Below are positions 23,177 through 24,316 of a stretch of 64,000 nt of DNA, piece by piece (the stretch's first letter is position 1; the number at the start of each line of letters is the position of its first letter). A program made the translations under genes and the position numbers. Below the pieces are notes generated by a model. It worked only from the letters and a program-made list of their open reading frames with translations, had not been told where the DNA came from and made no database searches. The stretch covers positions 2,914,001-2,978,000 of the forward strand of contig NVQB01000001.1 in assembly GCA_002319075.1 (NCBI GenBank), in the 5' to 3' direction. This DNA is from Sphingobacteriaceae bacterium (lineage in GTDB: Bacteria; Bacteroidota; Bacteroidia; B-17B0; Aurantibacillaceae).

Positions 23177-24316
23177 GTGAAAAAGCTGCCGCAACTGAAA
23201 TTAAAAACTTCGTCACTTATCAAACAGGCGTTAGAATTGGTAAGCGCATCGCGTGGTCACGTGGTCCGGCAAACGAATGGGCTAATGGTATTTACTTATT
23301 TTCAATTAGGCCGTTTAATTGTAGAGCATGAGCAGCAAGGTACCAAGCGCGCTGCATATGGAAAGGAGGTTATCGTTCAAACGAGTGATAGATTAACCAG
23401 TCGATTTGGAAAAGGTTTTTCGGTAGATAATTTAGAAAACATGAGGAACTTTTATGAGGTGTTCAGATATAAGTTTACGGATAGTGTAATTTCCGAGACA
23501 GTGTCTCGGAAATCTCCTTCGATTGGAAAAGTGCGGGGAATGCCGGCAAAAATTTTAATTTCCGAGACACTGTCTCGGAAATCGTTTACCGAGATATTTC
23601 CATTGTCATGGTCGCATTATGTTCTTCTTTGTAAGATTAAAAACCAGCAAGAGCGGTCATTTTATGAAATAGAAACTATACAGGGCCATTGGAGTGTACG
23701 AGAGCTACAGAGGCAGTTTGACGGGTCGTTGTTTGAACGCTTAGCTTTAAGTAAGAATAAGAAAAAAGTTAGAGAGCTTGCAAAAAAAGGTCAGATCATC
23801 GAAAAACCTGAAGATATTTTAAAATCATCTTATGTGCTTGAATTCCTTGGCCTGGAATCTAAAAGTAGTTACACAGAAACAGATCTTGAAACGGCGATCA
23901 TCAATAAAATAGAAACTTTTCTGATTGAAATGGGTAAGGGCTTTTTGTTTCAGGGAAGGCAGATTCGTTTTTTATTTGACGGCGACGAGTTTATTGTAGA
24001 TCTTGTGTTATATAACAGGTTACTGCAATGTTTTGTTTTAGTAGACTTAAAAATCGGAAAATTAAGACATGAAGATATTGGACAAATGCAGATGTATGTG
24101 AATTACTATGATCGCTATGTTAAAACTGAAAAGGAGAAACCTACGATTGGTATTATCATCTGCAAAAACAAGAGTGATGCGGTTATAGAAATTACATTGC
24201 CAAAAAATAACAAAACAATTTTTGCCAAGGAATATAAATTATATCTTCCAAGTAAAGCAGATTTAGTAAACTTAGTAAACGAACCAACTGAATATTATAC
24301 CAATAAAACAACTTAA
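23177..24316 (+). CDS. YhcG-type PDDEXK nuclease domain protein (DUF1016) with palindromic insertions
   Basis: The 379-residue product has a DUF1016 N-terminal domain (about 10-100, ...GFSVDNLENMRNFYEVF), a variable linker (about 101-145), and a PDDEXK-type nuclease domain (about 245-365) with GDEFIVDLVLYNRLL and VLVDLKIGK, the latter giving the D...LK catalytic signature. Family members are thought to cut DNA, in some cases within restriction-modification loci, but the role is unsettled. The start is GTG 23177 because the overlapping ATG (23175) reads directly into TGA. Two 25-bp palindromes lie in frame in the linker (23489-23513, 23558-23582) and encode ISETVSRKS and ISETLSRKS. The gene stands alone, with no methylase or specificity gene nearby. 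Confidence 0.88.
   Translation: MKKLPQLKLKTSSLIKQALELVSASRGHVVRQTNGLMVFTYFQLGRLIVEHEQQGTKRAAYGKEVIVQTSDRLTSRFGKGFSVDNLENMRNFYEVFRYKFTDSVISETVSRKSPSIGKVRGMPAKILISETLSRKSFTEIFPLSWSHYVLLCKIKNQQERSFYEIETIQGHWSVRELQRQFDGSLFERLALSKNKKKVRELAKKGQIIEKPEDILKSSYVLEFLGLESKSSYTETDLETAIINKIETFLIEMGKGFLFQGRQIRFLFDGDEFIVDLVLYNRLLQCFVLVDLKIGKLRHEDIGQMQMYVNYYDRYVKTEKEKPTIGIIICKNKSDAVIEITLPKNNKTIFAKEYKLYLPSKADLVNLVNEPTEYYTNKTT
23489..23513. repeat. 25-bp palindrome in the nuclease gene, copy 1
   Basis: ATTTCCGAGACA, central G, TGTCTCGGAAAT: a perfect 12-bp inverted repeat around one base. It is in codon phase and encodes I-S-E-T-V-S-R-K. The central base is the only difference from copy 2 read on the same strand. 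Confidence 0.95.
23558..23582. repeat. 25-bp palindrome in the nuclease gene, copy 2
   Basis: ATTTCCGAGACA, central C, TGTCTCGGAAAT. Because the centre is C instead of G, this copy is exactly the reverse complement of copy 1. It starts 69 bp (23 codons) after copy 1, in the same codon phase, and encodes I-S-E-T-L-S-R-K. Confidence 0.95.

Follow-up and report, generated by a model that had tools for sequence, protein, structure and literature searches.

The YhcG proteins, a widespread and unstudied family of bacterial and archaeal nucleases, appear to read a palindrome that lies within their own gene, and protein and palindrome appear to have evolved together. The family is described here from a yhcG-type gene in a window of 64,000 nucleotides (nt), that is, the whole stretch of DNA analysed, from a Sphingobacteriaceae bacterium (assembly GCA_002319075.1, contig NVQB01000001.1, positions 2,914,001 to 2,978,000). 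The gene holds two odd-centred perfect palindromes of 25 base pairs (bp), ATTTCCGAGACAGTGTCTCGGAAAT and ATTTCCGAGACACTGTCTCGGAAAT (Table 1), and comparison with its homologues makes it very probable that the protein's cognate DNA site is the palindrome in its own gene. Both palindromes stand exactly where a preliminary description of this DNA had placed them, with the central base as their sole difference and in the same codon phase: each starts on a codon boundary, and they encode I105-SETVSRKS and I128-SETLSRKS. A scan of the window allowing up to three mismatches returned only these two, with 0 matches in 100 dinucleotide shuffles. That description had set them between the DUF1016 N-terminal domain and the nuclease, which needs correcting: the Pfam domain DUF1016_N spans residues 20-188, and the palindromes are therefore inside it and not in a linker.

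Palindromes across the YhcG family

Family loci were drawn with the Pfam model PF17761 and not by palindrome, and the profile that identified their open reading frames (ORFs) had been built on loci selected by palindrome. Exclusion of ORFs shorter than 250 amino acids (aa) and of identical proteins took 229 loci to 260 ORFs and 208 genes (four phyla), later enlarged to 314 genes in six phyla, phyla being named after the titles of the seed-locus records; high-scoring proteins are favoured in the sample, part of the lower-scoring matches having been added. Of the 314 genes, 166 carry a perfect palindrome with an odd centre and arms of 8 bp or more, and 229 a site whose centre falls on codon position 1 and in which 10 or more of the 12 pairs match. 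Arms of at least 8 bp occurred in 114 of the 208 genes, as against 2.4% of 2080 synonymous-codon shuffles and 9/182 control ORFs. Even-centred palindromes were seen in 6/208 genes, which is about their shuffle level of 2.3%, and the shuffle null for sites of at least 10/12 pairs, in any phase, was 86/1040 on the 208 genes. The sequences vary between genes with dyad symmetry retained: 333 distinct half-sites were counted among 223 unique 25-mers with at least 9/12 pairs, and the general form of the site is ATT-N9-S-N9-AAT.

The position of the sites was followed in 292 site-bearing genes, 64 of them from the palindrome-selected scan. Nearly all cognate sites (412/434) fall within the loop that separates helix 83-96 from W145, and the centre falls on codon position 1 in 434/435. 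There are one to three cognate sites per gene (two in 113/292), and the median loop length rises with their number, being 16, 43 and 52 residues for one, two and three sites; their spacing shows peaks at 36, 39, 48, 78 and 108, with no clear 10.5-bp helical rule by eye. When additional copies of a gene's own palindrome were sought at 18/24 or better, 86 were found within the same gene across 228 genes, versus 2.2 using the palindromes of other genes; outside the gene, within 1 kb on either side where that sequence was available, there were 8 matches, versus 1.2 with foreign palindromes, so that a general upstream operator is not the rule. In some genes the palindrome is found upstream or on both sides instead (loci L345 and L004). 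Within genomes, 1/47 paralogue pairs shares a core (21 genomes; the pairs were not compared with an identity-matched control). The family is present in about 7-40% of the sampled genomes in each of the six phyla, including 99/247 genomes of the window's phylum.

Covariation of protein residues with half-site bases

If the palindrome is the DNA site of its own protein, the bases of the half-site should track certain residues. The 292 proteins were arranged in 145 disjoint pairs for 3972 tests, genes without a site of at least 10/12 pairs being excluded, and the pairs had a median identity of 74%, measured outside the reading region. The two best associations join residue 84 to base -7 (p 4e-16) and residue 87 to base -8 (p 6e-14), followed by residue 146 with -3 (3e-11), residue 88 with -6 (2e-10) and -5 (7e-10), and residue 87 with -9 (8e-10). 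S146 covaries also with base -4; V149 with -5 falls just below Bonferroni significance, V174 with -3 (p 1.2e-5) is at the Bonferroni line, and R175, which is associated with C at -2 in weighted counts, reaches only p 1e-3 in the pair test. As a control, the bases of 39 codon positions elsewhere gave, against distant residues, a lowest p of 4e-7, with a median of minima of 2e-4.

The same residues were found to predict bases in held-out proteins. Training for each prediction was restricted to proteins below 50% identity, and a representative was scored only if at least three training proteins shared its residue, as was the case for 51-74 of the 76 in the reading columns. Residue 84 gave base -7 in 61/74 (baseline 33/74), residues 84 and 87 together base -8 in 45/51 (baseline 22/51), residues 146 and 174 together base -3 in 52/57 (baseline 22/57), and residue 88 base -5 in 57/71 (baseline 46), and 6/9 control columns were no better than baseline. 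Among cluster-weighted counts of at least 0.5, R84 occurs solely with G(-7), D84 solely with C(-7) and R175 solely with C(-2), and Arg88 is mostly paired with C at -5; these pairings (Arg84-G, Asp84-C, Arg88-C, Arg175-C) make chemical sense. The window protein has D84, E87, N88, S146 and R175, and its half-site TCCGAGACA carries the tables' bases at the seven covered positions of the nine core bases, close kin of this protein being in the tables.

Predicted structure and nuclease domain

An AlphaFold model places the covarying residues on helices 83-96, 145-152 and 174-182 and shows loop 105-133 as disordered (predicted local distance difference test score, pLDDT, below 50); the N-terminal part of the window protein modelled alone has a pLDDT of 83. 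In a structural second look at the N-terminal domain, the 11 best rows were all ParB/Noc/Spo0J (Z 6.8-8.9), and the next row had Z 5.2. The match is modest, with weak Foldseek E-values, and makes it likely that DUF1016_N is ParB/Noc-like in the sense of resemblance and not of membership. According to a published study (PMC7383237), the DNA sites of ParB and Noc are palindromic, and the specificity of these proteins can be switched by four residues. Up to E 0.001, Pfam reported only DUF1016_N (PF17761, E 1.3e-36, 126.2 bits versus a curated cut-off of 32.8) and YhcG_C (PF06250, E 3.7e-52, 176.8 bits versus a curated cut-off of 32.5) in the window protein, and no ParB CTPase domain. A search of NCBIfam up to E 0.1 gave no family, and no credible sequence relative was found in PDB (best E 0.19). 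The protein matches the PDC-S02 models of PADLOC, with E down to 2.5e-130, and its own genome (5.65 Mb) has one DUF1016_N match.

The C-terminal domain is EndoMS/NucS-like (5gke, Z 11.6), and the PD-(D/E)XK catalytic residues D275, D290 and K292 are present in the window protein. Among site-bearing homologues, gaps set aside, D275 is retained in 281/281 and K292 in 274/274. YhcG had been predicted to be a PD-(D/E)XK nuclease with an N-terminal domain lacking confident matches, and the available portion of that paper names no site (PMC1189080).

Apparent exchange between alleles of Escherichia coli

In the loop of yhcG from E. coli K-12 there are three near-perfect palindromes, with 11, 10 and 11 of 12 pairs. 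Comparison of this gene with that of strain MSB1_3B gave 61/165 differences in nt 241-420, versus 5/240 and 26/708 outside this block, whose edges were set after the alignment was seen. The block holds the reading helix (GFSAKNLRQMRLFY to GFSTRNLWQFKNFY) together with the palindromes, both of which differ between the alleles, and each version is common to two further strains. Judged from these sequences, helix and sites seem to be exchanged as one block between E. coli alleles.

In four of the E. coli records fetched (L500, L502, L503 and L504) yhcG is broken, either incomplete and next to a transposase gene or frameshifted, and the gene can therefore be lost within the species.

The same core in other genomes

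In the whole of its own 5.65-Mb genome, no further exact copy of the 21-bp core was found beyond the two in the window. A scan of one genome per species found the 19-bp core TCCGAGACANTGTCTCGGA in at least 117 stretches, from bacteria of many phyla and from archaea (by record title), whereas about 4 exact matches would be expected by chance (257 gigabases / 4^18). Among the matches listed, and with the own-genome region (held twice, as loci L001 and L002) excluded, 102/133 core sites are within YhcG ORFs, 9 are at most 800 bp from one, and 22 are elsewhere on the stretch. The sites in YhcG genes, again among the matches listed, share one codon phase in 104/110 rows and have G or C at the centre in 108/110, a few sites being entered twice via overlapping ORFs. 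Of the core-bearing genomes, 48 were searched whole for the G/C-centred form (50 loci, with L015 excluded and with L027 and L040 belonging to one genome); 46 have 1-3 copies, the source loci of the two without a match have an A/T centre, and a reversed-pattern control gave 0 matches in all 48.

The exact 19-bp core was also sought in 2.9 million viral contigs and was found in 2 stretches, one inside a YhcG gene and the other with centre A and without a YhcG match. Restriction of phage at this site is unlikely because this one specificity, the only one scanned, is nearly absent from viral contigs. A type I restriction-modification neighbourhood was likewise rejected as a general association, HsdM/S/R-like proteins being found in 8/117 palindrome-selected stretches and 14/110 others (one query set).

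Several core-bearing loci lie apart from a YhcG gene. In a Methanomicrobium genome (L362, ~9302 and ~4252) the same palindrome stands ~385 nt upstream of an HsdM-HsdS-HsdR-like operon, so named from our own reading of the ORFs, with a second copy ~5 kb away and the YhcG matches of that genome on other contigs; it is possible that this palindrome is a target in trans or a relic. At L385 (1257 and 1359; the same as L027) two copies lie 102 bp apart, within repeats upstream of the gene for a large SNF2/Helicase_C protein, and the YhcG gene of this genome, on another contig (L040), carries the same palindrome. Seven loci (L006 at 6596, L056, L063, L085, L089, L102 and L113) have the palindrome outside any YhcG ORF, between a phage-type integrase and a Gp49/DUF891 gene, as identified by Pfam on L006 and by similar ORFs on the others. 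Four pattern matches (L103 2825, L065 2116, L050 1053 and L086 3432) resemble bidirectional terminators by eye, and 3/4 of them have A or T at the centre, unlike YhcG sites.

Proposed mechanism and alternative explanations

The fusion of a ParB/Noc-like DUF1016_N to a PD-(D/E)XK nuclease would constitute a palindrome-reading DNA-binding protein, probably acting as a homodimer on one 25-bp site, in which helix 83-96 of each monomer would read bases -9 to -5 and helices 145-152 and 174-182 about -4 to -2. Binding to one to three sites in its own coding region would then limit expression of the nuclease, whether as an autogenous operator, a roadblock or by silencing. The site occupies a peptide-tolerant loop between the codons of the reading helices, and specificity and site could move as one cassette; because the site is wedged between these codons, the two would travel together and could change without loss of self-control, and matched changes of helix and site would be required to keep that control. 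Taken as a whole, the proposal that YhcG-type proteins read palindromes, and that the in-gene sites are cognate and limit expression of their own nuclease, is one towards which we lean slightly. As for the use to which binding is put, autogenous control of a potentially dangerous nuclease is the likeliest, at about even odds; it was chosen because the nuclease has kept its catalytic residues, the majority of exact sites fall in the protein's own gene, and paralogues mostly differ in site.

A number of observations weigh against this proposal or against the steps leading to it. The sites are not at the promoter, 85/314 YhcG genes lack an in-gene site of at least 10/12 pairs, and an upstream copy of at least 11/12 pairs was found in 12/314 genes, not all of them cognate. 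In K-12 a perfect 25-bp palindrome lies 15 nt past the yhcG stop codon (L397, 6971-6995), which does not suit autogenous repression; this downstream site is identical in MSB1_3B and is retained, central base aside, in all six alleles compared, and the in-gene sites differ. The fit of E. coli to the general code is partial, and its sites are thus of mixed type: in K-12 (K84, R87) agreement with the table at -7 and -8 is seen for one of the three in-gene sites (full agreement in strains GF66.1 and S1-IND) and not for the other two, and in MSB1_3B (R84, W87) both in-gene sites fit at -8 and one each at -7 and -9. Four distant residues pass Bonferroni correction (I293 with -7, 3e-8; P211 with -9, 4e-7; G27 with -9, 1e-6; Y232 with -7, 1e-5), as do at least 4/39 control minima, so that some signal of shared ancestry remains, at least five orders of magnitude weaker than the two best associations. 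In the held-out predictions, control column 190 clearly beats baseline for -7 (41/66 versus 28/66), columns 281 (36/59 versus 31) and 46 (34/69 versus 31) are slightly above it for -8, and the gain from residue 175 for base -2 is small (62/73, baseline 56). Foldseek alone gave E 1.2 or worse for the N-terminal domain, and Z near 8-9 in a helical domain can reflect common architecture. Finally, among the open-licence PMC papers listed, titles and abstract starts yielded no binding, expression or cleavage experiment.

That the palindromes are ordinary coding sequence, the by-product of a conserved peptide motif, has next to no probability. A SETxSR peptide does recur at the same position in many homologues, but the excess over synonymous-codon shuffles rejects this explanation, many palindrome sequences encode many peptides, the loop is modelled as disordered, and some palindromes are outside the ORF; nor does the varying number of cognate copies, one to three per gene, resemble the single motif, identical in all homologues and with ordinary protein conservation, that the preliminary description had associated with such sequence. 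That description had also offered a short mobile or replicating family, akin to the Rickettsia palindromic elements but shorter, and here the variable length and copy number of the in-frame loops, together with the 31/133 exact sites outside YhcG ORFs among the matches listed, could be cited in support. Mobility is nevertheless extremely unlikely: it is already contradicted by the covariation, the palindrome varying from gene to gene and tracking the predicted DNA-reading residues of its host protein, and the two copies in its own genome without dispersed ones, the low copy number in 46/48 genomes and the near-invariant codon phase of the centre do not suit a mobile repeat. Its further suggestion of hairpins that control nuclease expression holds in part, since the sites are tied to the biology of the nuclease gene itself and control of expression is the best guess, but the hairpin form does not hold. 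A perfect inverted repeat within coding sequence is able to fold into a hairpin, yet messenger RNA (mRNA) stem-loops controlling translation, or bound by YhcG as RNA, are very unlikely. An mRNA hairpin would favour G-U, and the mismatched pairs of 199 unique 25-mers comprise 57 G-T versus 52 A-C (p 0.70), with 68 G-U versus 87 A-C in a looser set; this lack of wobble bias favours a double-stranded DNA site read by protein, as does the position of the covarying residues, on helices predicted to read DNA. The bases next to the centre could not pair in a hairpin, yet they are complementary in 152/199. This argument is weaker than that from mismatches, because the 199 sites were selected for at least 10/12 pairs and because the innermost of the first eight pairs is the least often matched (152/199 versus 183-194), which a hairpin loop would also give and which counts in favour of a hairpin.

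Other explanations keep the binding of YhcG to its palindrome and differ in its consequence. It is conceivable, though doubtful, that YhcG is a self-addressed nuclease, its gene encoding both enzyme and private target, with the enzyme cutting, nicking or silencing its own gene and the exchanged block serving as a specificity cassette; such a system would be self-referential, with neither a guide nor a separate target, and would extend over bacteria and archaea, E. coli K-12 included. A more specific version is unlikely: after binding, YhcG would introduce cuts or nicks at the palindromes of its own gene, and the damage would be repaired from another allele with exchange of the block, so that the enzyme would drive diversification of its own specificity or act as a suicide switch. 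This version would accord with catalytic D275 and K292 in every scorable site-bearing gene, with the concentration of exact sites in YhcG ORFs at 1-3 copies per genome, and with an E. coli block centred on the palindromes, as short gene-conversion tracts are around a break. Selection for matched helix and site would, however, lead to block exchange just as readily, and a self-cutting nuclease should vanish fast, yet the gene is common in the window's phylum. A ParB-like role in the chromosome or its replication, in which YhcG would load at parS-like palindromes and act on neighbouring DNA or replication intermediates, the in-gene site being a mere loading point, is distinctly unlikely. The ParB/Noc/Spo0J resemblance of the N-terminal domain and the EndoMS-like nuclease domain speak for it, as does a published report that deletion of yhcG in E. 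coli is synthetically lethal with hypomorphs of dnaB, dnaN and parE (PMC2672614). Against it stand the coexistence of several specificities within one genome and the absence of a CTPase domain by Pfam. To our knowledge, systems of the parS type have a single conserved specificity.

Features of the window

Table 1. Coordinates, within the 64,000-nt window, of the yhcG-type gene, its palindromes and the codons of its predicted structural elements
Feature	Position	Strand	Basis or remark
yhcG-type gene, 379 aa, GTG start, DUF1016_N + PD-(D/E)XK nuclease	23177..24316	+	ORF, Pfam, PADLOC
Palindrome 1, ATTTCCGAGACAGTGTCTCGGAAAT, 25 bp, centre G, proposed cognate site of own protein	23489..23513		letters
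Palindrome 2, ATTTCCGAGACACTGTCTCGGAAAT, 25 bp, centre C, proposed second cognate site	23558..23582		69 bp from palindrome 1
Codons of helix 83-96 (VDNLENMRNFYEVF), proposed recognition helix	23423..23464	+	model and covariation
Codons of residues 105-133, loop modelled as disordered, hosting both sites	23489..23575	+	pLDDT <50
Codons of helix 145-152 (WSHYVLLC)	23609..23632	+	model and covariation
Codons of helix 174-182	23696..23722	+	model and covariation
YhcG_C PD-(D/E)XK nuclease domain, residues 213-361, with D275, D290 and K292	23813..24259	+	Pfam

Significance and comparison with known systems

Among the open-licence PMC papers listed, none was seen by its title or abstract start to deal with the palindromes or with a DNA site for the YhcG family. 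What is proposed here for this nuclease family of unsettled function is a testable activity, namely sequence-specific DNA binding, together with a cognate site. Since most genes carry the site, residue-base tables can be extracted from genomes alone, and since E. coli K-12 has yhcG with four sites, the idea can be tested there. The design would be an unusual one, with a binding site between the codons of its reading helices and with specificity and target inherited and exchanged jointly. Its parts are of known kinds (a ParB-like fold, a PD-(D/E)XK nuclease and intragenic operators), and we know of no other family in which most genes carry the site of their product between the codons of the reading helices.

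The closest likeness in predicted fold is to ParB and Noc (Spo0J). A parS site is located inside spo0J of Bacillus subtilis. A palindromic site, in YhcG a predicted one, is common to YhcG and ParB/Noc, as probably is the setting of specificity by a few residues of the reading region, described for ParB and Noc in PMC7383237. YhcG differs in that it has no Pfam CTPase domain, is fused to a nuclease, and has sites of many sequences within the gene itself, and the likeness is not significant by Foldseek alone. Compared with EndoMS/NucS and other PD-(D/E)XK nucleases, YhcG has the nuclease domain fold in common and a different N-terminal domain. The match to the PADLOC profile PDC-S02 is to a model whose name is a phage-defence candidate label only, and, unlike the site of a type II restriction enzyme, which is frequent in phage DNA, the proposed site of this one specificity is nearly absent from the viral contigs. 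The site of a homing endonuclease lies in the allele without the gene and is interrupted by the gene, whereas YhcG sites are uninterrupted inside it. The Rickettsia palindromic elements, selfish sequences of about 100-150 nt according to PMC4316617, are likewise palindromic and can stand in frame within coding sequence; they occupy many dispersed loci, in contrast to the two genome copies here, both in one gene, and YhcG sites are 25 bp long, are found mostly in one gene family and co-evolve with it.

As a palindromic, operator-like site inside a coding region, the YhcG site is comparable to the intragenic operators of the lac and gal systems. Both lac O2, which lies in lacZ, and the internal operator of gal are palindromic and are bound by a dimeric helix-turn-helix protein. 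Unlike these, the YhcG site would lie in the gene that encodes its own binding protein, family-wide and between the codons of the reading helices, and its protein carries a nuclease.

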